Source: Aequorivita vladivostokensis
GTDB lineage: Bacteria; Bacteroidota; Bacteroidia; Flavobacteriales; Flavobacteriaceae
Assembly (NCBI RefSeq): GCF_000952855.1
Contig: NZ_JSVU01000006.1
Location: 62,001 to 126,000 of the forward strand
DNA length: 64,000 bases
Reading direction: 5' to 3'
In this document: piece by piece, positions 45,991 to 64,000 of the stretch
Layout: every line of letters begins with the position of its first letter
Position numbering within the stretch: the stretch's first letter is position 1
Notes under the pieces: model-generated
Database searches by the model: none
The model's input: only the letters and a program-made list of their open reading frames with translations
What the model was told of the DNA's origin: nothing
Made by a program: the position numbers and the translations under genes

Positions 45991-46046
45991 AGCCACATAT
46001 TCAAAAGTAATATTTAAGATACTTTTGAATATGTGGCTATTTTTTT
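45991..46046. terminator. 19-bp perfect hairpin, bidirectional terminator
   Basis: The arms at 45991-46009 (starting AGCCACATATTC) and 46020-46038 are perfect reverse complements over 19 bp, with a 10-base AT-rich loop and a run of eight Ts after it. The stop codon of the convergent NAD(P)HX repair gene (46037-46039) lies at the edge of the right arm. Confidence 0.85.
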
Positions 46047-47587: not shown

Positions 47588-47775
47588 CTTTCTATTTCAA
47601 TTTTTTGCGACTTATGGGCTTCCGTCATGTTTTCTTAATCGTAAAAGGTCCGAGGAGCGACCGTTTTTTCCAAAGATAACAACTTCATCGGCATTGTTGA
47701 AAAGAACGTTTATAACTAATTGTGAATGCTGCCCAAATGCCTTTAATTCTTTCTAATTTTAGAAAAAACCATACA

Positions 47776-48180
47776 ATGGAAACACGAGATAGTTTACTAC
47801 TCCGTATGCGCCCAGAAATTCCCACGGCCAAAATTAACCCCACCATGTCTGCCGATGAATGTTTTCAGAATAAAACCTTGAGGCCTGTCGCAAAGCTTCA
47901 GAATGAACTTTTGTTGGCGGTTTTTCGGAATTATGTGGCAAAACACAAAAATGTATTTTACGACCTTACCATAGAAAAGAGGTTGGATTATATAGAAAAC
48001 GCTATCCATAAGGATATGAAATTTCGGAATTCGCTCAAAGGCATCATCATAGGTCAGTTTACGCTGGAGGAATTTGAAATCTATACCCAAAACTCATCTG
48101 CGCTGAACAAACGGATGATGGACATAGTTAAGGAACGATTGAAAAGCAATATCCAGCTTTTGGAATACGATTTTGCATAA
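47776..48180 (+). CDS. Conserved flavobacterial small protein, function unknown
   Basis: The 134-residue protein is soluble and helical (TLRPVAKLQNELLLAVFRNY near residue 34, YDLTIEKRLDYIENAIHKD near 62, LKGIIIGQFTLEEFEIY near 86). I recall relatives labelled 'glyoxalase', but I see no His/Glu metal pattern of that fold, so I do not adopt the name. ATG 47776 is chosen over an open frame reaching 47722 because METRDSLLLRMRPEIP looks like the family start. It is divergent from the NAD(P)HX repair gene. Confidence 0.72.
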   Translation: METRDSLLLRMRPEIPTAKINPTMSADECFQNKTLRPVAKLQNELLLAVFRNYVAKHKNVFYDLTIEKRLDYIENAIHKDMKFRNSLKGIIIGQFTLEEFEIYTQNSSALNKRMMDIVKERLKSNIQLLEYDFA

Positions 48181-48198
48181 TATAATATTGTAGGGTTG

Positions 48199-48238
48199 GT
48201 AGTAATCTTGAAATTGATTTATCGAAGTAGATTACTAC
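48199..48238. terminator. Inverted repeat between convergent genes
   Basis: GTAGTAATCT (48199-48208) and AGATTACTAC (48229-48238) are perfect complements with a 20-base loop. There is no T-tract, so a role as terminator is uncertain. Confidence 0.4.
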
Positions 48239-48254
48239 TATCGGCAAAACCGTG

Positions 48255-48944
48255 CTACCGGCTACCCTCCAAAATGGATTCCCCATTTAAATCTGTTGTC
48301 AAAACATCGCTCATATAGTTGAAGAATGGCCGCAGCAGTTGATAATGGTAGATCAACTTCTCTTTAAAATCGGGTGAAAATACTTCCGTATCGGTAAAGG
48401 GATGGTTTACGAAGTAACTCTTTAAACGTATTAAATCTATGTTTTCATCGTCTTTGCTGAATCCTTGGGGCGCGGTCTTTACAGCATATTCCTGATTAAA
48501 ATTCCCAAATGCTTTTTTGAATTCCTTTTTATTCAAAATATCGCGTATTTCTGAACTATCCATTTCAAACTCCTTGCGTATTCTTAAAAGATCTGCGGGG
48601 TTGGGATCAAAGAAACCACCCGCCATAAAACTATTACCAGGTTCCAATCGCAAGTAATAGCCACCTCTTCGGTGCGCTCCTGACCTACTGAAACTTACGC
48701 TCCGGTGCACATTATACGGTGTTTTATCATTGGTGAACCGTACATCCCGATTGATACGAAAAATTTTGATTTTGTCAATTTCATCTGTGGTATTTAGTTC
48801 CTTTTCCACTGCGGCATAAAATTCCTTCAGCGCCTTTTCATTGGCCAAATATTCTTTTTTATGTTCCTGCATCCACTCTCTATTGTTATTTTCTTTTAGT
48901 CTTAATAGAAAATCGAAGGCCGTTTTGGGAATTACTGGAGTCAT
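48255..48944 (-). CDS. DUF2461 family protein
   Basis: The 229-residue protein belongs to the DUF2461 (TIGR02453) family of unknown function. The marks are FLLRLKENNNREWMQEHKKEY at the start (in parts), KIFRINRDVRFTNDKTPYNVH near residue 59 and GGYYLRLEPGNSFMAGGFFDP near 93-113. No signal peptide or membrane segment is seen. It is convergent with the small protein upstream and divergent from the four-helix membrane protein. Confidence 0.92.
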   Translation of the reverse strand: MTPVIPKTAFDFLLRLKENNNREWMQEHKKEYLANEKALKEFYAAVEKELNTTDEIDKIKIFRINRDVRFTNDKTPYNVHRSVSFSRSGAHRRGGYYLRLEPGNSFMAGGFFDPNPADLLRIRKEFEMDSSEIRDILNKKEFKKAFGNFNQEYAVKTAPQGFSKDDENIDLIRLKSYFVNHPFTDTEVFSPDFKEKLIYHYQLLRPFFNYMSDVLTTDLNGESILEGSR

Positions 48945-49111
48945 ATTTCAGATTTTGTGGAAAGATATGAAATGTTAGGGGTTCACCTTTTAGGATAACT
49001 ATGAAAATTATGAGTTGAAAACCAATCCTTTTCTTGATAAAGATAATTACATAATACACTTTACAGGAAAAAACTCTAAATTTACATCAACAACATTAAA
49101 GCCAACTAAAT

Positions 49112-49546
49112 ATGAATACGACTACAAAACCAAATACGGCATTTTGGATTATTGCCGTTTTTGCCCTACTATGGAATTTAATAGGAGTTTATTTGTGGCT
49201 CTACGAATATTTCCTAATAACCGACGAAGTAAGGGCCACTCTTCCTCAGGAACAAGTGGAGATTATGGCCAGCGCTCCAATATGGAGTATGTATGTGTAT
49301 GGACTCGCAGTTATTACCGGACTATTGGCAAGTGTATTTCTACTGATGCGTAAAAAATTGGCAGTTGCTGTATTCCTGCTCTCCTTAATCGCTGTGCTAA
49401 TTCTGCAATTATATTGGATATTTGCTATGGGCACTATAGAAAAGCTTGGGCCGCAGTCGCTTTTTATGCCGCTCATAGTAATCGCACTTGCAATTTTTGA
49501 ATATTTCTATAGTATGGGCGCGGCACGCAATGGGTGGCTTACTTAA
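49112..49546 (+). CDS. Small four-helix membrane protein
   Basis: The 144-residue protein has four predicted helices: AFWIIAVFALLWNLIGVYLWLY (in part, residues 9-30), MYVYGLAVITGLLASVFLLM near 58, AVAVFLLSLIAVLILQLYWI near 82, and SLFMPLIVIALAIFEYFYS near 115. The spacing fits small flavobacterial membrane proteins of unknown function (sometimes labelled sugar transporter without support). ATG 49112 follows an A-rich leader. Confidence 0.75.
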   Translation: MNTTTKPNTAFWIIAVFALLWNLIGVYLWLYEYFLITDEVRATLPQEQVEIMASAPIWSMYVYGLAVITGLLASVFLLMRKKLAVAVFLLSLIAVLILQLYWIFAMGTIEKLGPQSLFMPLIVIALAIFEYFYSMGAARNGWLT

Positions 49547-49560
49547 GAACAAACCAAAGA

Positions 49561-50616
49561 TTAGTTTTTAAGCGAAGCCATATCGATAACAAAACGATAT
49601 TTCACATCAGCCTTTACAACGCGTTCGTATGCGTCATTAATGTCTTTAATATCAATAATCTCAATTTCAGAAACAATATTGTGCTTTCCGCAGAAATCGA
49701 GCATTTCTTGGGTTTCTTTTATGCCTCCTATTAACGAACCTGCTATGCGCTTTCGACCCATAATAATACCACCTCCGTGGAAAGGCTCTAAAGGTTCTAC
49801 CGCTCCTACAAGCACCATCGTTCCATCTACCTTTAATAGATTTATATATGGATCCATTTTATGGCCTACGGGAATTGTATTAAGAATCAAATCAAAACTG
49901 CCTCGATGCTCTGCCATTTCTTCCTCATTCTTGCTGATAAGCACTTGGTGCGCGCCAAGCTTTTTTGCATCTTCCGCCTTTGACGGTGAAGTGGTGATCA
50001 TTACAACATTAGCTCCCAAAGCATTAGCAAATTTGATCCCCATATGACCTAAACCTCCAAGGCCAATTACTCCCACCTTGTCACCTTTTTTCACCTTCCA
50101 GTGACTTAACGGCGACCAGGTGGTTATACCCGCACACAATAAAGGTGCTGCTCCGGCCGGATCCAAGTTTTTTGGAATATGCAGTACAAATTCTTTATTT
50201 ACTACAACATCTGTTGAATATCCGCCATAGGTTTGTTGGCCTTCTAAATGTTTATCCGCACTATTATAAGTAAAGGTAGCTCCGTTTTCACAGAATTGTT
50301 CCAAATCGTTTTTGCACTGTGCGCAGGTTTGGCAGGAATCTACTAGACAGCCTACTCCCACAATATCACCTTCCGTGAAATTATGGACATTTTTTCCAAC
50401 TGCTGTAACACGACCAATTATTTCGTGGCCGGGCACTACGGGATAGGTGCTTCCACCCCACTCATTACGCGCGGTGTGAATATCACTATGGCAGACCCCA
50501 CAATGGGTGATTTTTATTTCCACATCATCGTCGCCCGTCTCACGGCGCTTTATATCCATCGGTTTAAGTTCTGCTTTTTCACTTTTTACGCCGTATGCTT
50601 TTACAGTTGTAGTCAT
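49561..50616 (-). CDS. Zinc-dependent alcohol dehydrogenase (cinnamyl-alcohol/YahK type)
   Basis: The 351-residue enzyme reduces aldehydes or oxidises alcohols with NAD(P)H. It has the catalytic zinc site CGVCHSDIHTARNEWGG (Cys37 and neighbours) and GHEIIGRV, the structural zinc cysteines CLVDSCQTCAQCKNDLEQFC near 95-114, a Rossmann motif GLGGLGHMGIKFANALGA near 184-201, and VLVGAVEPL near 267. A Ser/Thr at the ribose site (TTSPSKAEDAKKLGA) suggests NADP(H). It is convergent with the four-helix protein and starts 228 bp from the small membrane protein on the other strand. Confidence 0.94.
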   Translation of the reverse strand: MTTTVKAYGVKSEKAELKPMDIKRRETGDDDVEIKITHCGVCHSDIHTARNEWGGSTYPVVPGHEIIGRVTAVGKNVHNFTEGDIVGVGCLVDSCQTCAQCKNDLEQFCENGATFTYNSADKHLEGQQTYGGYSTDVVVNKEFVLHIPKNLDPAGAAPLLCAGITTWSPLSHWKVKKGDKVGVIGLGGLGHMGIKFANALGANVVMITTSPSKAEDAKKLGAHQVLISKNEEEMAEHRGSFDLILNTIPVGHKMDPYINLLKVDGTMVLVGAVEPLEPFHGGGIIMGRKRIAGSLIGGIKETQEMLDFCGKHNIVSEIEIIDIKDINDAYERVVKADVKYRFVIDMASLKN

Positions 50617-50802
50617 TGATTGTTTTATATTTTTAGGATTTATAATTTATGTGTGCCAAAATTTTTAATCAGCACAATCCGATTTATTTCCGTAAAGATA
50701 TTCACCCTTGAAGTTATTTCAGGTTAAGGCCGTGTTAATACCTTTGGCTACTTCACTTTTAAATGAGTTATGATTAAATGTAAATAAGTCAAGAAAAATG
50801 AC

Positions 50803-50829
50803 GTAAAACCGATACATTCACCTAACTAA
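50803..50829 (+). promoter_or_regulatory. Upstream motif shared with the YtxH gene
   Basis: GTAAAACCGATACATTCACC (continuing TAACTAA) lies 15 bp before the ATG at 50845. A closely similar stretch stands at 59664-59690, 11 bp before the YtxH gene: GTAAA-purine-CCG, then TTCAC and TAA-CTAA in the same order. It is unlike the TAnnTTTG promoters seen elsewhere in the window and may be read by an alternative sigma factor. Confidence 0.5.
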
Positions 50830-50844
50830 CAAAAAAACAAAATC

Positions 50845-51000
50845 ATGGGTAACATTTTATGGATAATTGTAGTCTTACTGGTAATCGGTTGGCTATTCGG
50901 GTTTTTAATATTTCCTGCCATTGGCGGAATAATTCACATATTGCTGGTAATTGCAGTAATTATGGTAATCTACAAACTACTTAGTGGCCGCAAGGTTTAA
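50845..51000 (+). CDS. Lmo0937-family small membrane protein
   Basis: This is a 51-residue protein (start MGNILWIIVVLLVIGWLFGF, end YKLLSGRKV) with two hydrophobic segments and a short basic tail. It fits the Lmo0937 family of small membrane proteins found across bacteria and often tied to stress, a point from memory. It has its own promoter-like motif upstream and a strong terminator 7 bp downstream, so it is a single-gene unit. Confidence 0.85.
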   Translation: MGNILWIIVVLLVIGWLFGFLIFPAIGGIIHILLVIAVIMVIYKLLSGRKV

Positions 51001-51007
51001 TAAGCTT

Positions 51008-51047
51008 AAACAGGGTTTTTAATTTAGTTTAAAAATCCTGTTTTTTT
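51008..51047 (+). terminator. Terminator of the Lmo0937-family gene
   Basis: AAACAGGGTTTTTAA (51008-51022) pairs with TTAAAAATCCTGTTT (51029-51043) over 15 bp with one G-T, and a T-run follows to 51047. Confidence 0.88.
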
Positions 51048-51145
51048 ATAATTCTGGTTCGAAGTCTTATTTCAAAATACTCCGTTACAGGGCATTGCAC
51101 TTGAGAAAATGATTATTATACTATTGAAATTGTTATACGTATAGA

Positions 51146-52078
51146 TTACTTTCTAATCTTTCCCGAAAACCGAGGCAGAGTAAGGGTTGTCTTGCTTGTA
51201 TTTATGAAATATACCCCGGTTAAAAGCACGGCTGCTGCTACAATGGATTGGGTAGTAATTTCTTCATTTAAAACATACCAGCCCAAAATCAGGGCAATAA
51301 TAGGATTTACATAGGTGGAGGTAGCAACCTTATCTGGTGATACCGTTTTTAACAGATAATTGAAGGAAGTGAAGGCCACGATGCTCCCAAAAATAATCAG
51401 CAATACCATACTCCATTGCACGGGGGCTTCCCATTGCTTTGGCGCAATCCATTCTTCCCCAAAGAGAAAACTAGCAACGGCAAGGGTAATTCCCGCAGTA
51501 AACATTTGATATCCGGTATTTACAAAGAAATTCTTGGGAAGATCCGCTTTACCCACGAAAAGACTGCCGTAGGCCCAACTGAGCATACAGGCAAATATCA
51601 TCACCATTCCCAATACCGTTCCCTCTTGGGCAATGAGTTGTTTTTGTACAACGAGCAGAAAAATTCCTATAATTCCCAGGCCCACACCCACCAACGACAT
51701 TGGCTTGATGCGCTTGCCCTGTAGTAGCCACATAAGAAGCAAAACCACCAAAGGCTGCGCAGAAATCTCCAAGGCAGCAAACCCACTATCTACATATTTT
51801 AGTGCCCAAACAATAATGCCGTTTCCAAAGGAAAGAAACAACACGCCCACTATAAATGCATTTATAAATTGCTTTCGGGTAATGGCAAGGCTTTTCCCCA
51901 TAATTTTGGCAATTATAAATATAAGAAGTCCAGCGGAGGTAAAACGAATAGAGGCCAAAAAAAACGGCGGCAATTCCGCAACGGCCACTTTATTGAGCAT
52001 ATACGTACTTCCCCAAATAACGTAAATGGAGAAAAAGGCAAGAATTATTAAAACGGGGTTTCTTGTTTCTGGCTTCAA
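51146..52078 (-). CDS. EamA/DMT-superfamily transporter
   Basis: The 310-residue inner-membrane protein has ten helices in two EamA repeats. The first repeat has the motif FSIYVIWGSTYMLNKVAV near residues 17-34 and FLASIRFTSAGLLIF near 40-54. The second has FACMLSWAYGSLFVGK near 160 and YVNPIIALILGWYVLNEE near 255-272. Members export metabolites or drugs; the substrate here is unknown. It stops 45 bp before the end of the DEAD-box gene region and is transcribed in the same direction as that gene. Confidence 0.92.
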   Translation of the reverse strand: MKPETRNPVLIILAFFSIYVIWGSTYMLNKVAVAELPPFFLASIRFTSAGLLIFIIAKIMGKSLAITRKQFINAFIVGVLFLSFGNGIIVWALKYVDSGFAALEISAQPLVVLLLMWLLQGKRIKPMSLVGVGLGIIGIFLLVVQKQLIAQEGTVLGMVMIFACMLSWAYGSLFVGKADLPKNFFVNTGYQMFTAGITLAVASFLFGEEWIAPKQWEAPVQWSMVLLIIFGSIVAFTSFNYLLKTVSPDKVATSTYVNPIIALILGWYVLNEEITTQSIVAAAVLLTGVYFINTSKTTLTLPRFSGKIRK

Positions 52079-52124
52079 GGGTTTCGTTTGTGGTTAATTT
52101 GGTTTGGTACTTGAAATTAGGAAT

Positions 52125-53471
52125 TTATTTCCCACGTTTATTCTTTCTAAAATTTTTATCGCCTCTGGTTTTGGGCTTTTTGTACTTCTGCTTTATTACG
52201 CGCTTGTAAGAACCTCCCTGATTTTCCTTTTTATTTTTTTCCTTCTTCTCGTGAAAAGCGGGTCCAGCTTCCTCTACATTGGTGGGGTTATTGATTTCAA
52301 CTATTTGGGGTTTTTCCTCAAAGGTGAGCTGTTTTGAAATCTTTACTTCTTTTGGAAATTCAAATTCTTTAATTTTTAAATCCATCAAGGTTTCGATAGT
52401 CGCCTTTGCATCCTCTTCCTTTTCGGTGTAGAGCAAAATGGAAGTTCCCTCCTGCTCTGCCCTTCCGGTACGGCCTATGCGGTGCATATAGTTTTCGGGG
52501 AAGTTGGGCACGTCAAAGTTGATAACGTGGCTTATCTGGTCCAAATCCAAACCGCGCGCCATAACATCGGTCGTTACGAGGATTCGCGTTTTTTCGGCAT
52601 TGAAGTTTTCTATGGAACGGATTCTGTAATTCTGTGTTTTGTTGCTGTGGATTACGGCAACTTCACTTCCGAAGAATTCATCCAAAATATCAAAAAGCAA
52701 ATCGGCACTTTTTTTATTCGGAACAAAGACGAGTACTTTTTTGAAATCGCTTTCATTCTGAAGCAAATGTTTCAGCAGATTGGCTTTTGTATAAAAATTC
52801 TCAACCTTGTAAGCGTATTGCGAAATATTCTCCAATGGCGTTCCGCTTACCGCCACCGATACTGTAGTAGGCGCAATAAAGAAATCGTGGATAAACACAT
52901 TTACATCATCGGTCATCGTTGCCGAAAACATAATGTTTTGGCGCTTGTTGGGAAGCAGCTCCAAAATATTGGTAAGCTGAAACCGGAAGCCCAGATCGAG
53001 CATTACATCCACTTCATCAATTACCACTTTTTTTACGGCCTTTAGCTGAAGCGCGCGGCTTACCACCAAATCATACAATCGCCCCGGAGTGGCAACGATT
53101 ATGTCGGCTCCTTCGGCAACGGCTTCCTTTTGGCGGTTGATGTTGGTTCCGCCAAAAACCCCGATTACTCTAATTGATGAATATTTTCCAAATTTCTCAA
53201 TCTCTTCCACCACCTGTAAAACCAACTCCCGAGTGGGAACCATTACTAGAACGCGCGGGTTTATTTCCTTCGAAAATTTCAAATCCTGAAGAATGGGGAG
53301 CATATAGGCAAATGTTTTTCCCGTTCCCGTTTGCGCAATCCCGACCATATCGGTCCCCGACATGATTACCGAAAACGACTGCACCTGTATGGGCGTGGGT
53401 TTTTCAAAACCCAAATCGGCGATGGCATACTGCAGTTGGTTGGAAATATTAAACTCGTTGAATGATTCCAT
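52125..53471 (-). CDS. DEAD-box-type ATP-dependent RNA helicase (DEVD variant)
   Basis: This 448-residue RNA helicase remodels RNA, for example in ribosome assembly or cold adaptation. It shows the Q motif (FNEFNISNQLQYAIADLGFE ... PTPIQ), motif I AQTGTGKT near residue 46, PTRELVLQV, TPGRL, motif II as DEVD (VIDEVDVMLDLGF near 147), SAT near 182, and HRIGRTGRAEQ near 329. The last Asp is kept, so DEVD should still bind ATP. The tail is basic (KKPKTRGDKNFRKNKRGK). Its spacer upstream holds GGGATT heptads. Confidence 0.92.
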   Translation of the reverse strand: MESFNEFNISNQLQYAIADLGFEKPTPIQVQSFSVIMSGTDMVGIAQTGTGKTFAYMLPILQDLKFSKEINPRVLVMVPTRELVLQVVEEIEKFGKYSSIRVIGVFGGTNINRQKEAVAEGADIIVATPGRLYDLVVSRALQLKAVKKVVIDEVDVMLDLGFRFQLTNILELLPNKRQNIMFSATMTDDVNVFIHDFFIAPTTVSVAVSGTPLENISQYAYKVENFYTKANLLKHLLQNESDFKKVLVFVPNKKSADLLFDILDEFFGSEVAVIHSNKTQNYRIRSIENFNAEKTRILVTTDVMARGLDLDQISHVINFDVPNFPENYMHRIGRTGRAEQEGTSILLYTEKEEDAKATIETLMDLKIKEFEFPKEVKISKQLTFEEKPQIVEINNPTNVEEAGPAFHEKKEKNKKENQGGSYKRVIKQKYKKPKTRGDKNFRKNKRGK

Positions 53472-53510
53472 GGAAAAAAGTTTGTTGTAAATATAACGCT
53501 TTGTTAATTG

Positions 53511-53538
53511 GGGATTTGGGATTCGTTAATTCGGGATT
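53511..53538. repeat. GGGATT-type heptads
   Basis: Four 7-mers in register read GGGATTT, GGGATTC, GTTAATT, CGGGATT. They lie in the 179-bp spacer between the two helicase genes, just before the larger array at 53580. No gene is seen in the spacer. Confidence 0.55.
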
Positions 53539-53579
53539 TGTGGATTGAACTTTTAATTCTTATAAACTTAAAATCCCTC

Positions 53580-53649
53580 CTTAAATCTTAAATTTTGAAT
53601 TTTGAATTTTAAATCTTGAATCTTGAACCTTGAATCTTGAATCTCGAAC
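53580..53649. repeat. Ten-unit heptamer array, consensus YTTRAAT
   Basis: Seventy bases are made of ten unbroken 7-mers: CTTAAAT twice, TTTGAAT twice, TTTAAAT, CTTGAAT, CTTGAAC, CTTGAAT twice, CTCGAAC. Positions 3 (T in nine of ten), 5-6 (AA in all) are almost fixed. The array ends one base before the stop-codon end (53651) of the SF2 helicase gene. The same word on the other strand forms the array at 1933-1967. Confidence 0.85.
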
Positions 53650-53650
53650 C

Positions 53651-55204
53651 CTAATCCTCCGGCGGATGCCCGTGAATCTCTTCAAAAACGGTATCAAAAT
53701 TATCCCGCAGATAACTGCGTAATTTTAGGCGATAATCGTCTTTCAACCAGCTGATGAAATTGTGGGTGCTCTTACTGATGCACTGCGAGTACTTCTCAAT
53801 TCGGTGATCTATATCGTCGCCCAGCATTTTTGCCAATCCAAGCGCATCGTAAACATCTTCGCTGTTTTCTATACAAATATAGGCGTGCTGTGCAATAGAC
53901 CGTTCCAAAACCACTTTGCTCGATTCACCTTTAAAGGTTGCCTCTTGGTAAGTTTCCTTTATGTCGAAATACACTTCCTTGCTATTGGCAAACTCAGCGC
54001 GTAGCTCATCGGGCATTTCATACCTGAAATGGCTTTCCAATTCCTCATCGCTCAACAGTCTGTCCATATAATAATCAGGGGAGCGGAATATTGCCTGCCA
54101 GTCCAAAGGCGCTTCCCACGGGCCAAAACGCTGATAATTGTTCCCAAGGTCAATCACGGAAAATTTCGATTTATTGTTCAAAATACGCGAACCTCGACCA
54201 ATCATTTGGAAATAAAGCGTCAAGGAACGGGTTGCTCTATTTAAAATAATGGTATCAATGGTAGGTTCGTCAAAACCTGTGGTCAAAATACTTACGGAAG
54301 TTAAAATAGCGTCCGGCGTATCGCGAAACCATTTCAAAATTTGTTTCCGCTGTTTTTTGGTAGCCGTATTATCCAAGTGCATAATGGGCAAACCTTCGGC
54401 CTTTAAATGATAATATACTTGAATGGAAGTATTGATACCGTTATTAAAAATCAGGGTTTTTTTCCCTTTAGAATGATTTAAATATGCTTGGTATAATTGG
54501 TCAAGCATTCCGACGGCGGAATAAAGATCATCCGAGGATTTTACGGTATAATCACCATTGGAGCCAATCTCCAGTGAAGTTAGCCCCATATTGTATTGAA
54601 AGACTTCCACTTCAGCCAAAAACTCATTTTCGATCAAGGATTGAATACTTTCGCCCACAATGAGTTCGTCATAATTATCCTTCATAGGAAGGCTACGATT
54701 GGAACTTAAAGGAGTAGCTGTAACACCAAGTATAAAGGACTTTTCAAAAAATTTGAAAAGTTTTGTAAATGAGTTATAGTGCGCTTCGTCAATGATAACA
54801 AGGCCTATATCCGAAATGTCCAATTTATTATCGTTCAAACGGTTATTAAGCGTTTCCACCATCGCGACAAAACAACTGTACTTTTCTTGATCATCGAGAT
54901 TTGCAGTGCTGTTCACCACTTTGTTTACCACCCCAAAACTGGTAAGCATTTCTGAAGTTTGCTTGCAAAGCTCCACACGATGGGTCATCACAAGCACTTT
55001 TTTGTTGTGGATCTTTAAATATTGACGGACTATTTCAGAAAATATTACCGTTTTTCCACCGCCAGTAGGAAGCTGATACAGCAGATGATAATCATCCGGC
55101 GCAGTCTCAAATTTCTCGAAAATCTTATCAATCGCTCCTTTTTGGTAGCTATAAAGCTCTTTATCTGTTTTCTTTTCTTGAATTGCGTCTTGTATCTCTG
55201 TCAT
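53651..55204 (-). CDS. Stand-alone superfamily II DEAD/DEAH helicase
   Basis: The 517-residue protein is a DNA- or RNA-dependent ATPase related to the helicase parts of restriction and repair enzymes. It has YSYQKGAIDKIFEKF near residue 19, motif I QLPTGGGKTVIFSEIV near 42, MTHRVELCKQTSEML near 75, motif II VIIDEAHYNSFTKLF near 127, VTATPLSSNRSLP near 149, LTTGFDEPTIDTIILNRAT near 309 and QMIGRGSRIL near 335 (motif VI). A helical C-terminal part of about 150 residues has no domain that I recognise. ATG 55204 is preferred over 55231. No nuclease, methylase or other defence gene is adjacent, so the role is open. Confidence 0.87.
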   Translation of the reverse strand: MTEIQDAIQEKKTDKELYSYQKGAIDKIFEKFETAPDDYHLLYQLPTGGGKTVIFSEIVRQYLKIHNKKVLVMTHRVELCKQTSEMLTSFGVVNKVVNSTANLDDQEKYSCFVAMVETLNNRLNDNKLDISDIGLVIIDEAHYNSFTKLFKFFEKSFILGVTATPLSSNRSLPMKDNYDELIVGESIQSLIENEFLAEVEVFQYNMGLTSLEIGSNGDYTVKSSDDLYSAVGMLDQLYQAYLNHSKGKKTLIFNNGINTSIQVYYHLKAEGLPIMHLDNTATKKQRKQILKWFRDTPDAILTSVSILTTGFDEPTIDTIILNRATRSLTLYFQMIGRGSRILNNKSKFSVIDLGNNYQRFGPWEAPLDWQAIFRSPDYYMDRLLSDEELESHFRYEMPDELRAEFANSKEVYFDIKETYQEATFKGESSKVVLERSIAQHAYICIENSEDVYDALGLAKMLGDDIDHRIEKYSQCISKSTHNFISWLKDDYRLKLRSYLRDNFDTVFEEIHGHPPED

Positions 55205-55221
55205 AAAAACCCCATTTTTTA

Positions 55222-55255
55222 AGTTTTGCAAAACTACACCCTTTTGTAGGTTTTG
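55222..55255. promoter_or_regulatory. Nested inverted repeats upstream of the SF2 helicase
   Basis: AGTTTTGCAAAACT (55222-55235) is a perfect 14-bp palindrome. It overlaps a second inverted repeat, CAAAACTACA (55229-55238) against TGTAGGTTTTG (55245-55255), which matches with a one-base gap. They lie 18-51 bp before the helicase ATG, a place suited to an operator or a leader hairpin. Confidence 0.4.
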
Positions 55256-55299
55256 GACGAAGTTTTAAGAAATTTATTATGCAGGAATTTTCCGATGGT

Positions 55300-55521
55300 T
55301 TATTTCTGCTTTGTCTTGAGATAAAGTTGTTCTATTTTATCTCGGGCCCAAGGGGTTTTTCGAAGAAATGTTAAGCTCGATTTGATGGAAGGGTTGCTGT
55401 TAAAGCAATTGATCCTTATTTTTTCACCTAAAACCTCCCAGCCATAGTAATCAACCAGAAATTCAAGAATATCCGCAAGTTTAATACCGTGCAAAGGATT
55501 ATTGGGTTGTTGGTTATCCAT
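55300..55521 (-). CDS. VF530-family small DNA-binding protein (DUF2132)
   Basis: The 73-residue protein has the family marks [20 protein letters not shown] near the start, [20 protein letters not shown] in the middle and [12 protein letters not shown] at the end. The family is a small helical domain related by structure to DNA-binding folds; the cellular role is unknown. It lies between the SDR gene (upstream, 53 bp) and the SF2 helicase gene on the same strand. Confidence 0.93.
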
Positions 55522-55574
55522 AATAATTTGTAATAATTGTTTCGCTTAGTCTTTCATTTTTATTCTGAAAAGAA

Positions 55575-57194
55575 CTACCAATCTATTGGCCTATAATCCT
55601 TTAAAAACTTTCCGCTCCAGTGTTTACCGGTATTTATACCATCAATTAACGGATCCATTACGCGGGCCGCCCCATCAACAATATCCAGCGGCGGTTGAAA
55701 GTCGTGCAGCTCCATTTTACGCTTTGCCAGCTCTACCGGATCTTCGTCGGTTACCCAACCCGTATCAACTGCATTAATATATATTCCTTCCTTTGCAAGG
55801 CTTCCCGCTGCCGTATGCGTCAACATATTGAGGGCGGCCTTGGCCATATTGGTATGTGGGTGGCGATCTTCCTTGAAAAAACGATGGAACTTCCCTTCCA
55901 TCGCCGAAACATTTATAATGTGCTTTTTACCTGTATTTTGCTTCTTCATAATTTCGCCCAAACGGTTACAAAGCACAAAAGGCGCAATTGAGTTTACTAA
56001 CTGAACCTCAATCATTTCCGTAGTTTCAATTTCACCAAGCCTTAAACGCCAGCTATTGGTTTTTCGAAGATCGACTTGTTGCAAGTCCGCATCCAATTTT
56101 CCTTCGGGAAATACTTCCTTTGCGCTCAAGGAATTGTCAAAACTATAAGGAATCTGCGAGAGTTTTGCCGAAGCTCGAATGCCGATTCCCGGTTCTGCAC
56201 CATGCCAAGTTACGGGTAAATTTTTATTTGAATTTTTCACCATCTCTGTACTGATGGTTTTTAATTCGTGCAAACAATTGATGTGATCTTTGAGCAAATC
56301 CTTCACAAATTGCGGATGTTCCTCCAAAGGCATCTCTTCCCGGGCCATTAAATGTTGGTAGAAAGCTGCGGGCCTTCGCACGGTTTGGGCGGCGTTATTA
56401 ATAAGTATGTCAAGATTTTCATATTTCTGCTCAATATAATTGCAGAAAATTTCAACACTCGGAATATGCCGAAGATCCAGACCGTGAATCTTTAAACGGT
56501 CTGCCCATTGATGAAAATCTTCTTCCTGTGCAAAGCGATAGGCCGAATCTGCCGGAAACCGCGTGGTAGCGACCACGGTAGCGCCCGCCCGAAGCAGCAT
56601 CAAAGAAATATGATAACCGATTTTTAAGCGGGAACCTGTTAGCACTGCAACTTGTCCAGTTAAATCCGCGCTTTGAAAACGCTTTGCATAATTGAAATCG
56701 CCACACTCGGTACACATAGTATCATAAAAGTGATGAAGCTTGGTATAAAGTGTCTTGCAGACATAGCAATTGCGCGGGGTTTCAAGTTCAAGTTCTTTTT
56801 TTGAAGAAAGTTCCGAGGTTTGAAGCAATTTTGGAGCTACAAAAACTATGTTTTCGCGCGCGCTTCTAATACCGGTTTCTTTTCTTGCGGTTCGATCCTT
56901 ATTTGCCTGTTTTCGTTTTTCGGCTTTTTTTGCATCTTTTTTTCTTCGGGAAAACTCATCGCGGTTCGGTCTCGAAAGCTGTCCCGAAGCCTTTATTAAG
57001 GCCGTGCGCTGTTCCTTGGGAATTTCAAATATTTGATCGGTATTGCTGTTCAAATATTCCAGAATGGCAATACACCTTGCTATTTCGGTTTCATCTATCG
57101 TTCCGTTTTTAGCCAATCCAGAAATGTCCGGCACTGCCTCCATCCCATCTTTCCCAACGGCAAGCTTAATCTCTGACACTTTTTCTTGTGACAT
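55575..57194 (-). CDS. Zinc-ribbon plus short-chain dehydrogenase/reductase fusion
   Basis: The 539-residue protein has an N-terminal region (1-75) of unknown fold, a highly basic segment ([20 protein letters not shown] near 82-101), a probable zinc ribbon with CYVC (143-146) and CTEC (161-164), and then a Rossmann SDR domain starting at [16 protein letters not shown] near 182. The SDR marks are [13 protein letters not shown] near 267 and INVSAMEG near 442 (catalytic Ser). At the YxxxK position it reads TNMAK, so the usual Tyr is Thr and the Lys is kept. Similar multi-domain SDR proteins occur in bacteria and eukaryotes as I recall. Its substrate is unknown. It lies 74 bp downstream of the EF-G-like gene. 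Confidence 0.85.
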
Positions 57195-57268
57195 ATTAAA
57201 TTTTCGGCAAATATACTCACAGTTTGAACGTGGAAAACATTTTGCCCCAAATAGTATAAGCCAGTTTT

Positions 57269-58156
57269 CTATTTACTTACCAACTCCTTTTGAATATTGG
57301 CAGGAACAGCTTGATACATTGAAAATGAAGATTTAAAAGTAGCCCGTCCCTGGGTGAGCGAACGCAAATCTGTAGAGAAGTTATAGAGTTCTGCTTCTGG
57401 TGTCAAACATTTTAAAACTTGATAATTGTTATTGCTCTCTATTCCTTGTATCATGGAGCGTCGCGCCTGTAAGTCGGTCATTACATTGCCCACCATTTCC
57501 TCCGGAACTTTTACGGTTAGTTCCAATACCGGTTCCAAAAGTTTGGGATTGGCATTTAAGAATGCTTCCTTAAAAGCGTGTGCGCCAGCAATTTTAAAGG
57601 AAATATCATTGCTATCCACAGAGTGCATCTTACCGTCATAGACCATGACCCGAACATCCCGTATGTAGGAACCGGTGAGCGGACCTTCTTCCATAACTTC
57701 CAAAACACCTTTCATTATGGAAGGCAGATAGCGCTGGTCTATCACGCCGCCGACGATGCAATTGTAAAAAATTAATTTCCCACCCCAGGAAAGATCCATT
57801 TCTTCCTTGCCTCTAATATTAAAACCTTGGGGCTCCTCCATATTTTCATACCAAGGTTCAATCTTTAGATGAACCTCGGCAAACTGCCCAGAACCGCCGG
57901 ATTGTTTTTTATGTCGGTAATTAGAAGTGGAAGATCGCTGAATGGTTTCCCTGAAAGCTATTTTCGGCTTGTCGAAACGTGCTTCTACCCCATAAATATT
58001 CTTCAGCGTCCAGTCTATGGTAGCTAAATGGAGTTCTCCTTGACACGACAAAATAAGTTGTTTCGCTTCCGAAGAAAAGGAAATTTGTACGGTAGGATCT
58101 TGGCTATGTATTTTCCTTAACGATTCGCTCAGTTTTTCCTCGTCTTTTGTATTCAC
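57269..58156 (-). CDS. EF-G-like protein, C-terminal part (domains III-V)
   Basis: This open frame carries the translocation-factor C-terminal domains: [20 protein letters not shown] (domain III), [20 protein letters not shown] and [19 protein letters not shown] (domain IV), [20 protein letters not shown], and [21 protein letters not shown] (domain V). As a separate gene it would have to start at GTG 58156, inside domain III: the conserved residues KFPVTVKPIKFPPSKIKKAVF lie upstream, in the same frame, directly after the TAA that ends the other half. It is best seen as the second half of the interrupted gene. Confidence 0.75.
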
Positions 58157-58231
58157 TGCAAAAACCGCTTTTTTGATTTTTGAAGGTGGAAATTTGATCG
58201 GTTTTACGGTAACGGGAAATTTCGCAGCGGT

Positions 58232-59371
58232 TTAGGTGTCATTCGTTTCAGTATATTTTAATTTCAACGTTGCGCCGATGTCTCCCACTGTTAGTTTATT
58301 TACGGGTTGCCTGTCCTTTCCATCCATAATGAAAAGCTGGTTGATTACTTCGGTTTCATCGTTTCTGGAATTTATGAGTTTGTCATTCAATTTGACTTCT
58401 CCACTTATAACCTTAAAAAATGTAATCTGGCCTAAATTGGGCTGATAAACCGTTTTGAAAATAAAGAGCACCGTGGGGTTTTCTTTGGACGCAATTATTT
58501 CCTCGCCATCAATACTTTGTTCGGGCGTTAAATCGGCCGCAGAAGGTGCTACGTTGTCTATAAAGCCCATTAATCTTCCGGTACCCATATCATTTAAGGC
58601 GGATACACAGAATACGGGAAAGAGTTCGTGGTTCAGCATTCCGGCCTTTATTCCTTGTCGCATTTCGTCTTCGTTCAAGGTGCCTTTCTCAAAAAAAAGC
58701 TCCATCAATGGTTCGTCATTTTCGGCAGCTTTTTCTATCAATTCGTTATTTAGTTCCTTGGCCCATTCCATTTGATCTTTCGGAATTTCGAGCTTCTCTG
58801 GTTTGCCACCCTGAGGCTTAAACTTGTACATTTTCATTTTTAGGACGTCTATAATGCACTGCGCACCATTTAATAGCAAAGGATACTGTATTTGCACAGC
58901 ATTCTTGCCTACCAACTTTTTTATGCTTTTGAGACTTTCCTCAAATTTGGCATTTATATGGTCTATTTGATTTATTACAAAAAGGGTGGGCTTGTGGAAT
59001 TTGTCAATATAGTTCCAAATAATTTCGGTGCCTACTTCCACGCCATGCTGTGCATTTAGAACCATAACAATGGTATCTGCCACGCGGATGGAGGAAATGA
59101 TTTCGCCAATGAAATCGTCCAGGCCAAGCGTATCTATAATGTTAATTTTGAAATTGCGCCATTCGGTATGGAGCGGGGTGGCGAAGATTGAATTGCCGCG
59201 CTCGTGCTCAATTTCGTGATAATCCGAAACTGTGTTCTTGTTTTCAACCGTGCCCCGCCGATTTATGAGCCCAGCTTCAAAAAGCATGGTTTCGGCGAGA
59301 GTAGTCTTCCCGCTATTGTGGGCACCTACAAAGACTACGTTTTTGATGTGTTTGTCGTCATATATTTTCAT
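58232..59371 (-). CDS. EF-G-like protein, N-terminal part (G domain and domain II)
   Basis: The 379-residue open frame has the P-loop FVGAHNSGKTTLAETML (residues 14-30), HEIEHERGNSIFATP in the switch region, G3 as DTLGLDD (80-86) instead of DTPGHxD, and G4 as NQID (134-137) instead of NKxD. Domain II follows (FIFKTVYQPNLGQITFFKVI, then GEVKLNDKLIN). The changes in G3 and G4 are seen in the second, EF-G-like group whose role is not fixed. It ends at TAA directly after KLKYTETNDT, where domain II normally passes into domain III. Confidence 0.8.
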   Translation of the reverse strand: MKIYDDKHIKNVVFVGAHNSGKTTLAETMLFEAGLINRRGTVENKNTVSDYHEIEHERGNSIFATPLHTEWRNFKINIIDTLGLDDFIGEIISSIRVADTIVMVLNAQHGVEVGTEIIWNYIDKFHKPTLFVINQIDHINAKFEESLKSIKKLVGKNAVQIQYPLLLNGAQCIIDVLKMKMYKFKPQGGKPEKLEIPKDQMEWAKELNNELIEKAAENDEPLMELFFEKGTLNEDEMRQGIKAGMLNHELFPVFCVSALNDMGTGRLMGFIDNVAPSAADLTPEQSIDGEEIIASKENPTVLFIFKTVYQPNLGQITFFKVISGEVKLNDKLINSRNDETEVINQLFIMDGKDRQPVNKLTVGDIGATLKLKYTETNDT

Positions 59372-59701
59372 CTGTTTAAAAATTTTGGTTAGTACTTCTT
59401 CAGATGCAATGCGCCAAACACTGTTGGTTTGGACTTGCCTATTTTTCGTTGTCCATATATTATTTTTAATTTTTTGGGTTCTTAAATTTAAGGAATTAAT
59501 TCAAGAAAATCTGAATGTATAATTATTTTCACTTTGAAAAATGACACACATTATAAATTTCCTATTCGACAAACCGTTCAGAAACATTATGAATATTTTT
59601 AGTTATTAAATCCTTTATTATTAAATATTTATTAAAGTGAATTTATAATTATGTTAGGGTAAGGTAAAGCCGTATCTTCACGTAAACTAAAAAAAAACAA
59701 C
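59372..59701. other. 330-bp spacer without a gene
   Basis: The AT-rich spacer between the EF-G-like start and the YtxH gene holds only very short frames (the longest plus-strand candidate starts at 59541 and has 22 codons). At 59664-59690 is the motif described separately. I see no tRNA, repeat array or clear hairpin. Confidence 0.6.
59664..59690 (+). promoter_or_regulatory. Upstream motif shared with the Lmo0937-family gene
   Basis: GTAAAGCCGTATCTTCACGT (continuing AAACTAA) lies 11 bp before the YtxH ATG. It matches the motif at 50803-50829 at most positions when a one-base shift is allowed. Both genes also share an A-rich leader ending in CAA before the start. Confidence 0.5.
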
Positions 59702-59935
59702 ATGAACAATAAAGGAAAAGGATTATTAGCACTGCTAGGAGTAGCAGCGGGCGCATTTGCATTTTGGAAATACAAAAACATGTCGCCACAGGAAAAACAA
59801 AGACTAAAGGATAAAGCCAGCGAGACTGGCAGAAAAATCAAGGAAAAGGTAGAGGATGTTGAAGAAACCATTTCAGGTAAATATGACCAACTTAAAAATT
59901 CTGCCAAAAAGGAAGCTAACGATTTAGCAAATTAA
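59702..59935 (+). CDS. YtxH-domain small stress-type protein
   Basis: The 77-residue protein has a short N-terminal hydrophobic helix (GLLALLGVAAGAFAFWKY) followed by a charged amphipathic region (SPQEKQRLKDKASETGRKIK, then KVEDVEETISGKYDQLKNSA), the layout of YtxH-domain (general-stress) proteins. It probably sits at the membrane with a coiled-coil tail in the cytoplasm. It is a single-gene unit with a strong terminator 23 bp downstream. Confidence 0.88.
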   Translation: MNNKGKGLLALLGVAAGAFAFWKYKNMSPQEKQRLKDKASETGRKIKEKVEDVEETISGKYDQLKNSAKKEANDLAN

Positions 59936-59958
59936 AATGCTAGAGAGTTTATAAATTG

Positions 59959-59986
59959 AAAAATCCCGCAAAAAGCGGGATTTTTT
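59959..59986. terminator. Terminator of the YtxH gene (bidirectional)
   Basis: AAAAATCCCGC (59959-59969) and GCGGGATTTTT (59975-59985) form a perfect 11-bp stem with an AAAAA loop, with a T after it. The A-tract on the left lets it serve the convergent cold-shock gene also. Confidence 0.92.
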
Positions 59987-60007
59987 AATTTAAGAATATA
60001 ACGAAGA

Positions 60008-60454
60008 TTATATTTTTTGAACTTTTACTGCGTTCATTCCGCGCTGGCCTTTTTCCAGTTCAAAGGACACGGCATCATTTTCTGTTATTTCGTCTATAAT
60101 GCCACTCACGTGGGTAAAATATTTCTCATTATTTTCATCATCAATTATAAACCCGAAACCTTTGGAGGAATCGTAAAATGAAACTTTTCCGTTTCGTACA
60201 GGGTCAAAAGCCTCGCGCTCGCCCTCTTCTTTTGGCGGAATTCCGAGAACTATATCTTCTGCCTCAATCTCAGGCTTTAAGGATGGATCTGGGGGAGTGT
60301 CGGTCAAATTTCCGTTATGGTCCACATACACGAAATCTATACCCGGAGTTTTTTCGGCTTTTCGAGCTTCCTTCTTCTTTTGCTTCTCTTCCCGTTTTTT
60401 CAGTTTTGCTTTTTCTTTTTCCTTTTTACTATATGTCTGTTGCGATTTTGCCAT
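60008..60454 (-). CDS. Cold-shock domain protein with long charged N-terminus
   Basis: The 148-residue protein is a probable RNA chaperone. Residues about 85-148 form the cold-shock domain with KVSFYDSSKGFGFIIDDENN (RNP1-type GFGFI), YFTHVSGI (RNP2-like) and DAVSFELEKGQRGMNAVKV. The first 40 residues are extremely basic and polar (SKKEKEKAKLKKREEKQKKK) and likely bind RNA; an acidic linker follows. This extended form is common in Bacteroidota. Its leader holds a terminator-like hairpin just before the start codon. Confidence 0.9.
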   Translation of the reverse strand: MAKSQQTYSKKEKEKAKLKKREEKQKKKEARKAEKTPGIDFVYVDHNGNLTDTPPDPSLKPEIEAEDIVLGIPPKEEGEREAFDPVRNGKVSFYDSSKGFGFIIDDENNEKYFTHVSGIIDEITENDAVSFELEKGQRGMNAVKVQKI

Positions 60455-60467
60455 GTATTTTTTGAAT

Positions 60468-60496
60468 AAAAAAAGCCATCCACGTGGGCAGATGAC
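60468..60496 (-). terminator. Terminator-like hairpin in the leader of the cold-shock gene
   Basis: On the minus strand GTCATC (60496-60491) pairs with GATGGC (60480-60475), with one G-U pair and a 10-base loop containing CCCACGTG, and is followed by seven Ts (60474-60468). It ends 14 bases before the cold-shock ATG. It may be an attenuator or the end of a transcript from msrA. Confidence 0.5.
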
Positions 60497-60659
60497 TCTT
60501 GAATTAGTTATATGAAATGTTCTTTTCTATTGTTTTACCTAGATGGGTTTTAAATAATAATCATCCTATTTTTCCAAAGATACGGTAATTGGAGTGATTA
60601 AAATCACAAAAAGGGTTAAAGTATTGTAACGTAAGTATTCGCTCGCGCTATTTTTAAAT

Positions 60660-61199
60660 CTATTTCAATTTATCCGCGTGCATTTCCCTAAGTTTGGCAA
60701 GTTTTGGCGAAATAACTGCAGTACAATAACCTTGGCCTTGGTTGTTGGCATAGTAATCCTGATGGTGTGCTTCCGCTGGATGGAATTTTTCCAAAGGGCT
60801 CAATTCCGTTACAATCGGATCGTCAAAATAGGGTGCCATTTCTTTTAAAACTGTTTCGGCAATTTTTTTCTGTTCTTCATTATGGTAAAAGATTACCGAT
60901 CGATATTGGGTTCCCCTATCCGCCCCTTGTTTGTTCAGCGTAGTTGGGTTGTGGGTGGTCATAAATATAACGAGCAGGTCTTCATAAGAAACCACTGTGG
61001 GGTCGAAGGAAACTTGGATTACCTCGGCGTGGCCGGTAAGGCCGCTGCAAACTTCACGGTAGGTCGGCGTTCCCGGCACCTTTCCGCCGGAATAGCCTGA
61101 AATCACTTTCTCAACCCCTTTTATCTCATCGAAAACCGCTTCGGAGCACCAAAAGCACCCGCCTCCCACGGTCATCTGTTCTAAATTTTCTTCTTTCAT
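60660..61199 (-). CDS. msrA: Peptide-methionine (S)-S-oxide reductase
   Basis: MsrA reduces methionine S-sulfoxide in proteins. The 179-residue protein has the catalytic GGGCFWCSEAVF (Cys15), GYSGGKVPGTPTYREVCSGLTGHAE (in parts, near 40-65), and the substrate block THNPTTLNKQGADRGTQYRS near 86-105. ATG 61199 (MKEENLEQMTVGGGCFWC) is preferred over 61226. It is a single-gene unit on the minus strand upstream of the cold-shock gene, with a 205-bp spacer. No msrB is adjacent. Confidence 0.96.
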   Translation of the reverse strand: MKEENLEQMTVGGGCFWCSEAVFDEIKGVEKVISGYSGGKVPGTPTYREVCSGLTGHAEVIQVSFDPTVVSYEDLLVIFMTTHNPTTLNKQGADRGTQYRSVIFYHNEEQKKIAETVLKEMAPYFDDPIVTELSPLEKFHPAEAHHQDYYANNQGQGYCTAVISPKLAKLREMHADKLK

Positions 61200-61314
61200 A
61201 TCATAATTTTTTAATAGGCTTTCCAAAGATAATTACTGCGTTGCGGTAACTATCTAAAGTATTGTTAAACCTGAGTTTTTGTGCTTTTCATTAATTTTAT
61301 GCCGAAATATTAGT

Positions 61315-63579
61315 TTAGAAGGGATAGCCAATTCCAAAATTGAAAACGGTTTCATTCACATCAAAATTGAAGCCCTCTTCGGTAGCCGGATCGTGGAAGG
61401 GCGCGGCAAAATCAAAACGCAATACAAAGCCTTGAATATCTACACGCAGCCCCACACCGGCGCCCATGCCCAGTTCATTTATAAAATTGGAAGTGAATTT
61501 ATCGGTGCCGCCGTAGGTGGGATTGGCTTCTGAATTCCAGATATTTCCGGCATCGGCAAAAACAGCGCCCTTAAAAAAGGAAACTATGGGAAACCTGTAT
61601 TCAATATTTGCTTCCAAACGTATGTTACCCGTTTGGTCAAAATAATTATTGTTGGGATTGTCGGCATCGTTATACGTTCCCGGCCCCAAAGAGCGAATCC
61701 TAAAAGCCCTAACGCTATACGGCCCTCCAGAATAGTATTGTTTTACATACGGAATTACATCAGAATTACCATAGGCATAACCATAGCCGCCAAAGAGCCG
61801 GGCTGCAATAACCTGCTCTTTCCCAAAGTTGAAATGGTATCTCACATCGGCATCAAACTTCGCGAATTGGGCATACTCCAATCCTAAAAATTCTTTCTTG
61901 CCCATTTCATTTTCTTTCCCAAAAAGACTGATACTGTTTCCGGCAACATCTACCGTGGCATTTAGAAAAAATTGGTGCTTTTTGGAAGCATCCACCATGC
62001 CGTTATAGGTAAAGGAATAGTTTAGCCCAGAAATAAACTGCTGGTCAAAACTTCGTTTCAAGAATGGGTTTTCATTTAAAATTTCGTCAAATTCCGGTGT
62101 CGTATTAGAAGGTTTGGTATAGTTTATCGAAATGGGAATTATCTCGTGCGTAACATATTTATTGGCCTGCCATATATATCCAAACTGGGCGGTGCCCGAA
62201 AGCAGGGTGTATAACTTTGTCCGGCTTAGGTAATCCACGCCCAAACTTGTCTTGGTTTTCGGGATGGCATATTCAAAGAAATCCGTATCAATTTTAATGG
62301 GGAAAATAACGCGCGGAAAAATAAGTTCAGATTTCAACCCGATATTGATACTTGTATTTCCGCTATTGCTGCCGCTGCCCATTTGTACCTCATATCCAAA
62401 ACTCGCCGTAGTATTCAAGGTTTCGCCGCCATTGAACAGGTTGCGGTTGCTATACGTGAGCGCCAAGCCGGGCCCCGCAAAATTGTTCGATTTTGTTACC
62501 GCTTGAAGTTCGGCGCGAATGGCACGCTTATTCAATGGCGAAAGAAAGATGTTCGCCTGCAAAAACCCCAAACTATCCGTGGACAGCGAATCCACTTCCT
62601 TATATTGAATGTTCACAAACTTATAGGCGCCAACGGTAGAGAGACGGCGGGAGGTATTCCGGGAATCTTCGGGACTGTAGCGTTCTCCCTCTTCCAAAGT
62701 GATAAAGGGGTCCAGATATTTCGGTTTGAAAAAATCTGCGCTGTTGATGTAGTTTTTTTCGTTAAAGCGGGCAACATCGGTCACCGTGGAATCTTGACTG
62801 TCATATTTGGCATAAACGTTTATTTCTGAAATTTTATAGGGCACGATGGCCATTTTGGGCACTTCTTTTTTCAACCGGAGAAAAAGATCGAAGCGTTTTT
62901 TATCGTATTGATTGGTATCGGCTTCAAATATTAAAAAACTTGAATTGAAATTATAGTACCCGACCGCTTTAAGATCGCGGTCTATGCGCTCCCGCTCCAA
63001 CTTCAGGTTTGAAAGATCAAAACGCATCCCTTTTTTCAGCTTTGTTTCCGCTACACTTCGCTGAATGGCAGAATACACGGGTTGGGGCAACGAGTCCAAC
63101 TGATAGCTGGCTATAGTATATGGCGTTGTAGCCTTTACCATATAGATTGCCGAAGCCTCTTTTTCCTTTTCTTCAAATTGTGAGCTTATTTCACTGTAGA
63201 AAAAACCCCTGTTTTCCATTCTGTTCCGCAATATTTCCTCAACCTCATAAAGCTCCACATCGCTTTGATAAACGGGCTCCTGCCCTATTCTTTTATAAAA
63301 GAAGCGATTTATAAATCCCGGATTCCCCTGTTGCATTTTGTAATAGAAATGAAGGCCGGGGCGCATTCCCAAGAACTTTTTATTCGGTTTTTGGCGCAAG
63401 GCCTCTTCCAAAACAGCCTCAAGGTTTCCTTTATTTTCGATAACGGAATCCGACTTAATTTCCACGGAAGCTCCCGTATAAAGCCGCTCATCTTCGGGGA
63501 TGAATTTCTTCACCGCGCAGGATTGAAGCACGAGGAGTATGATTAAAAAAAGGACTGTTATGTTAAAAATTTTCTTCAC
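61315..63579 (-). CDS. BamA/TamA-like outer-membrane assembly lipoprotein
   Basis: The 754-residue protein belongs to the Omp85 group (surface antigen D15). It begins with a lipoprotein signal (LFLIILLVLQSC, Cys21), followed by POTRA-like segments (about 30-340: EVEEILRNRMENRGFFYSEI, RIDRDLKAVGYYNFNSSFLI) and a 16-strand-type barrel, with GGPYSVRAFRIRSLGPGTY near 625-643 (the conserved R-G-F/RxF block of Omp85 proteins) and a final Phe in FNFGIGYPF. A lipid-anchored TamA-like protein is usual in Bacteroidota. It stands directly downstream (35 bp) of a tamB-like gene, so the two probably form one translocation and assembly module. Confidence 0.9.
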   Translation of the reverse strand: MKKIFNITVLFLIILLVLQSCAVKKFIPEDERLYTGASVEIKSDSVIENKGNLEAVLEEALRQKPNKKFLGMRPGLHFYYKMQQGNPGFINRFFYKRIGQEPVYQSDVELYEVEEILRNRMENRGFFYSEISSQFEEKEKEASAIYMVKATTPYTIASYQLDSLPQPVYSAIQRSVAETKLKKGMRFDLSNLKLERERIDRDLKAVGYYNFNSSFLIFEADTNQYDKKRFDLFLRLKKEVPKMAIVPYKISEINVYAKYDSQDSTVTDVARFNEKNYINSADFFKPKYLDPFITLEEGERYSPEDSRNTSRRLSTVGAYKFVNIQYKEVDSLSTDSLGFLQANIFLSPLNKRAIRAELQAVTKSNNFAGPGLALTYSNRNLFNGGETLNTTASFGYEVQMGSGSNSGNTSINIGLKSELIFPRVIFPIKIDTDFFEYAIPKTKTSLGVDYLSRTKLYTLLSGTAQFGYIWQANKYVTHEIIPISINYTKPSNTTPEFDEILNENPFLKRSFDQQFISGLNYSFTYNGMVDASKKHQFFLNATVDVAGNSISLFGKENEMGKKEFLGLEYAQFAKFDADVRYHFNFGKEQVIAARLFGGYGYAYGNSDVIPYVKQYYSGGPYSVRAFRIRSLGPGTYNDADNPNNNYFDQTGNIRLEANIEYRFPIVSFFKGAVFADAGNIWNSEANPTYGGTDKFTSNFINELGMGAGVGLRVDIQGFVLRFDFAAPFHDPATEEGFNFDVNETVFNFGIGYPF

Positions 63580-63614
63580 TGAAAATGACGCTGTTTTTTC
63601 TGTTTATATCTAAG

Positions 63615-64000
63615 TTATTCTTTTTCGGCTTCTTTTTCTTCCTTTGGAGGTTGAGGTGTTTCTTTCTGCTCTTCTGCTTCCTTCTGCTTTTTTTCCTGTT
63701 CTTCCAAAATTCGCTTTTGCTCTTTTTCCTTTTCGGTTTCGCCACGAAGCAAGGCTTGCCACAATTCATCAAATTTGTTGAATTCCTGGGTGAAGATCAG
63801 CGCTATACCACTCGCAATGGTCTGCCCATCCACGATATTCTCAAATTGATTTCTTCTGAAACCTTTCAGCCTATATCTACCGTTTTCGGTGAGTAAATAT
63901 TCCAAGGTTACGTTGCCGATAAGGGGTGCGGGCTCGTTATTTGAACTGCTTCCCTGCAAATCCACTTCGCTGCCCACCCGTACAATTAACCGATCATCAA
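63615..64000 (-). CDS. C-terminal end of a second TamB-like protein (5' end outside window)
   Basis: The last 128 residues of a TamB-type protein are seen: DDRLIVRVGSEVDLQGSS at the window edge, PLIGNVTLEYLLTENGRYRL, and FENIVDGQTIASGIALIFTQ, then the motif FDELWQAL, as in the C-terminal domain of TamB. The end is a charged low-complexity tail rich in Glu, Lys and Gln (EEQEKKQKEAEEQKETPQPP and so on). The frame is open to base 64000. With the Omp85 lipoprotein 35 bp downstream it forms a likely TamA-TamB pair, distinct from the TamB-like gene at 20799-25187, which has no Omp85 neighbour. Confidence 0.85.
   Translation of the reverse strand, partial: DDRLIVRVGSEVDLQGSSSNNEPAPLIGNVTLEYLLTENGRYRLKGFRRNQFENIVDGQTIASGIALIFTQEFNKFDELWQALLRGETEKEKEQKRILEEQEKKQKEAEEQKETPQPPKEEKEAEKE

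Follow-up and report, generated by a model that had tools for sequence, protein, structure and literature searches.

A probable recent nonsense allele of the accessory elongation factor EF-G2 in Aequorivita vladivostokensis

One EF-G-like gene in the genome of Aequorivita vladivostokensis is interrupted by a single in-frame TAA; the gene is the accessory and dispensable EF-G2, and the interruption is most likely a nonsense allele of recent origin. The window (that is, the whole stretch of 64,000 nucleotides that was analysed; positions 62,001 to 126,000 of contig NZ_JSVU01000006.1, assembly GCF_000952855.1) holds both parts of the gene and the gene that follows it, with coordinates counted from the first letter of the window:

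58235..59371, minus strand: 5' piece of the EF-G2 gene, comprising the GTPase domain and domain II in 379 codons
58232..58234, minus strand: premature in-frame TAA; 96 of the 98 aligned relative rows, or 82 of the 84 distinct ones, have a Leu codon here
57269..58231, minus strand: 3' piece of the EF-G2 gene, comprising a variable linker and domains III, IV and V in 320 codons plus the normal stop
58154..58156, minus strand: GTG, the first in-frame start-type codon after the TAA, mostly Val and variable in relatives
59111..59134, minus strand: G3 (switch II) motif DTLGLDDF, residues 80-87 of the 5' piece
55575..57194, minus strand: SDR-family gene downstream of EF-G2, 74 bases after it on the same strand

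The open reading frame at 59371-58232 encodes 379 amino acids and terminates at the TAA (58234-58232), beyond which the frame continues without interruption from 58231 through 320 codons to the stop at 57271-57269, the next in-frame start of translation table 11 being the GTG at 58156, 25 codons past the TAA. A domain II match occupies residues 302-379 of the 5' piece (profile positions 4-80 of 84), and in the 3' piece a domain III match begins at codon 14 past the TAA and is followed by domains IV and V; together the pieces hold the full EF-G domain set, with the TAA at the domain II/III linker. An earlier note on this DNA had described a full-length EF-G-like gene cut by one in-frame TAA with the frame kept on both sides, at the point where domain II leads into domain III, and the reading frames, domain matches and profile matches agree with it: this is one EF-G-like gene, interrupted once. 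Its further remark that family-like sequence continues right after the TAA holds for the open frame and for the profile match (see below), which begins at codon 7 of the 3' piece, but not for the first eight alignment columns directly after the TAA, which form a variable linker.

For both pieces the top NCBIfam model is NF058620 (EFG2_Bacteroid), matched at positions 1-380 and 388-709 of 717, and given that the two pieces match one full-length model at consecutive positions, they represent one split gene rather than a chance arrangement. Taken apart, they score 498.5 and 445.0 bits against a curated cut-off of 1000 bits that applies to one full chain, and instead of the uninterrupted chain of about 700 residues that characterizes EF-G2, the frame carries the TAA after codon 379. 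A tetracycline-resistance ribosomal protection protein was considered and rejected, as the two pieces score 159.0 and 105.2 bits with the corresponding model (NF012153), below its cut-off of 775 bits. These profile matches identify the split gene as the accessory EF-G paralogue found in Bacteroidota, EF-G2. The canonical EF-G of the same genome is a separate, intact gene of 710 amino acids and keeps the His in its G3 motif. The best match among solved structures is PDB 7uvp/8dmf, a chain of 718 residues deposited as Tetracycline resistance protein TetQ that is presumably a Bacteroides EF-G2; the TetQ name of 7uvp_A and 8dmf looks carried over from annotation.

Comparison with relatives places the change at a conserved codon. 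The alignment comprised 98 relative loci with the 3' half, that is, 18 from the genus search and the best 80 of 293 from genome_contigs, 14 of which duplicate genus copies, leaving 84 distinct sequences. At the column of the stop, the two rows other than Leu are an Ile (L075) and a chimeric contig (L026), and none of the 98 rows has a stop there. All 17 of the other genus genomes with EF-G2 carry Leu (TTG in 8, TTA in 5, CTG in 2 and CTT in 2), and the aligned columns beside the stop codon show no indel in the genus rows. The gene is one open reading frame of 696-744 amino acids in 91 of the 98 loci, so that the single chain of about 700 residues claimed previously is borne out and the halves are not separate genes in the relatives. 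The seven shorter loci comprise the chimeric L026, four that are cut by contig ends (L037, L054, L102 and L105) and two that are shortened elsewhere, namely L079 (Salinimicrobium terrae) and L111 (CP070778), with open reading frames of 349 and 438 amino acids, no adjoining contig end and Leu at the column of the stop; in L079 the cause is apparently a frameshift at about residue 360.

The wider family gives the same picture. In a sample of 299 family genomes, 66 have an EF-G2 match at E<=1e-150, and an internal stop occurs in that of the window genome and in none of the 65 others, with the proviso that this threshold misses short relics, so that broken copies elsewhere may be undercounted. Two candidates for a second broken copy were rejected: the TAA flagged in G201 is the gene's own end, and in G015 contig C5 (L026, 1-1500) joins EF-G2 to unrelated sequence near the contig start, which we take to be an assembly chimera because by visual inspection no difference is apparent between the shared part and the end of contig C16. 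Separately, G264 holds a second, partial EF-G2 (L346, contig C17; query residues 338-699) that runs to the end of its stretch, with a full copy elsewhere in the genome.

Both halves of the interrupted gene are constrained to a normal degree. The ratio of branch length at codon positions 1 and 2 to that at position 3 is 0.050 for the 5' piece and 0.077 for the 3' piece on the branch of the window copy, compared with 0.055 and 0.078 over the whole trees (22 sequences, window copy included; third positions are near saturation, which makes the estimate rough). By this rough measure, the 3' piece would have been free of constraint for at most a few per cent of the branch that leads to the window copy. 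Normal constraint on both halves implies that the stop is very recent, or an error, or that the gene still works.

The G3 motif was compared at the position of the EF-G His, which we take to be the catalytic His of EF-G and its replacement to be a defining trait of the EF-G2 family. The window copy has Leu here, as do 92 of 93 relative rows; the remaining row has X. A 2023 paper in the EMBO Journal reportedly describes the Bacteroides EF-G2 as being without GTPase activity; since the aligned copies carry Leu where the catalytic His would stand, the marine EF-G2 proteins may share this lack, and loss of the G3 His may be general in EF-G2. Within the same motif, residue 82 has changed from Pro to Leu in the window copy alone; all 93 relative rows that have the residue carry Pro, and this change has the lowest BLOSUM62 score among 61 single-sequence changes at otherwise invariant columns. 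It is a weak hint of real decay rather than pure error; the window copy has just two private changes at invariant columns (tied ninth of 84), so general decay is not visible and the residue-82 change remains a hint.

Of 28 genus genomes, 10 lack EF-G2; all 10 are at least 99% complete and contain, as the only relative found, the distant canonical EF-G (approximately 33-36% identity). Loss of EF-G2 is thus tolerated. On a tree of canonical EF-G (27 genomes, as G018 gave no match; window genome scored as present; several nodes weakly supported), the distribution of EF-G2 requires at least six changes, or seven losses if it was never regained. Sixteen genus genomes have both EF-G2 and the SDR-family gene, which directly follows EF-G2 in 15 of them (G018 has the two on separate contigs); seven have the SDR gene and lack EF-G2, and the reverse holds for two (G009 and G026). 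As an observation on this neighbour in its own right, the copy in G017 (L160) is flagged with one TAA and that in G027, which also lacks EF-G2, consists of two fragments (L172 and L173). Horizontal replacement of the locus, suggested by the long branch of the window copy in EF-G2 DNA (0.29) when canonical EF-G groups the window genome with G024, was rejected: positions 46000-64000 of the window align with G024 contig C48 (183041-207064) in five large matches of 74-82% identity, with EF-G2 in a piece of 79%. This similar identity across the matches gives no sign that EF-G2 was imported.

On the basis of these observations, we favour a nonsense change that arose very recently, at a conserved Leu between domains II and III of EF-G2. 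Of the three options raised in the earlier note, a nonsense change is the one that agrees with the comparison (Leu in the relatives, TTA in five of the 17 genus rows and no adjacent indel), a sequencing error is unlikely and regulated readthrough is disfavoured. The stop would then be a feature of the organism itself rather than of the assembly alone; translation would end at the TAA and yield a GTPase/domain II fragment of 379 residues without domains III-V, with little or no full-length EF-G2 being made. An EF-G fragment that lacks domains III-V should not translocate. The 379-residue fragment would have no function, and EF-G2 function would be lost while the canonical EF-G remains intact.

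The main rival, which we regard as unlikely, is that the TAA arose in base calling or assembly and the organism carries an intact EF-G2. There is a single assembly, without this one codon the gene would be an ordinary single-chain EF-G2, and the two halves are normally constrained; each species is represented by one comparison genome, and a single pattern scan of viral_contigs returned no same-species contig with a further copy. Against an error, the assembly is good (3.27 Mb in 25 contigs, completeness 99.99, contamination 0.08), the stop codon lies in no homopolymer of more than three bases, and the gene has a second peculiarity in its private Pro-to-Leu change. EF-G2 is also the only clean mid-gene single stop in the small sample of about 1.1 Mb of the window genome that was compared. 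On that DNA, 43 of 928 open reading frames from the relative G007 were covered and 40 were unbroken, the broken ones being EF-G2, a 454-residue frame stopped at residue 24 and a frame of 163 amino acids with three stops at 68% identity; from G024, 18 of 57 were covered and 16 were unbroken, the others being EF-G2 and a 499-residue frame stopped at residue 33. Among these 43 and 18, no frameshift in the window genome was seen. In the reverse test, with open reading frames of the window genome placed on the relatives, 41 of 44 covered in G007 and 18 of 19 in G024 were unbroken, and the breaks all fell within the first 40 residues.

That the TAA is read through, in a regulated or leaky manner, to give both a short G-domain protein and a full EF-G2 seems very improbable, even though the frame is open on both sides, both halves are constrained, and the 80 nucleotides just after the TAA fold at -15.2 kcal/mol (z -2.1, with 4 of 200 shuffles folding as well). 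This fold was suggestive as a readthrough signal until it was compared along the gene, where 242 of 675 folding windows are at least as stable, and with 21 relatives, none of which has the same pairing. The stop itself is not conserved, TAA is an ordinary terminator in the window genome (389 of 544 open reading frames of at least 250 amino acids in the DNA examined, the commonest four bases being TAAA, with 177), and none of the 35 tRNA matches, all of which could be typed (from 150 of 190 first-look candidates that were scored), has a UUA anticodon. According to excerpts of one report, readthrough is least at UAA, and the strongest stop signal that they name is UAAU, not UAAA (PMC5289835).

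The least probable account is a functional two-piece EF-G2, in which translation restarts at the GTG at 58156 and the pieces assemble: although the cut falls between domains and N-terminal pieces of other EF-Gs (405-422 amino acids) are found among PDB entries, that GTG is present in 14 of the 98 rows and replaced by a range of other codons elsewhere, and this variable codon, mostly Val in relatives, is not a conserved start; a start there would lose the beginning of the domain III match, the codon sits in the predicted post-stop stem, and the gene is split in none of the 91 full-length aligned loci. Production of EF-G2 as two pieces or as a readthrough mixture, which would make it a translocase lacking the G3 His with G/domain II and III-V as separable modules, is given little credence.

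The break would matter little in itself, as the probable fresh loss of an accessory translation factor, and it adds a data point on EF-G2 as an expendable gene that is patchily kept in marine relatives (66 of the 299 family genomes). For Bacteroides thetaiotaomicron, the relevant parts of one study describe fusA2/EF-G2 as not essential in vitro and required for gut colonization (PMC6989115), and portions of another state that EF-G2 allows GTP-independent translation (PMC10294740). Among the literature matches listed, none concerned the EF-G2 of Aequorivita or Flavobacteriaceae, or its pseudogene, by title.

In comparison with known systems, the split gene shares with canonical EF-G (fusA) the order of the five domains and differs from it in sequence, with only about 35% identity to the 3' piece. 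It is closest to the Bacteroides EF-G2 (fusA2; NF058620, PDB 7uvp/8dmf), which both pieces match best and almost end to end; each is an accessory paralogue alongside a canonical EF-G, and the G3 His is absent from both (Leu in the Aequorivita EF-G2, Ser in PDB 7uvp). The Aequorivita copy differs in being interrupted by a stop, in its length (approximately 700 residues, compared with 718) and in its host, a marine genus of Flavobacteriaceae. With ordinary nonsense-disrupted bacterial genes and pseudogenes it shares a single premature stop, a kept frame, a dispensable gene and restriction to one lineage, and its sole distinctive trait among them is the neat position of the stop between domains.
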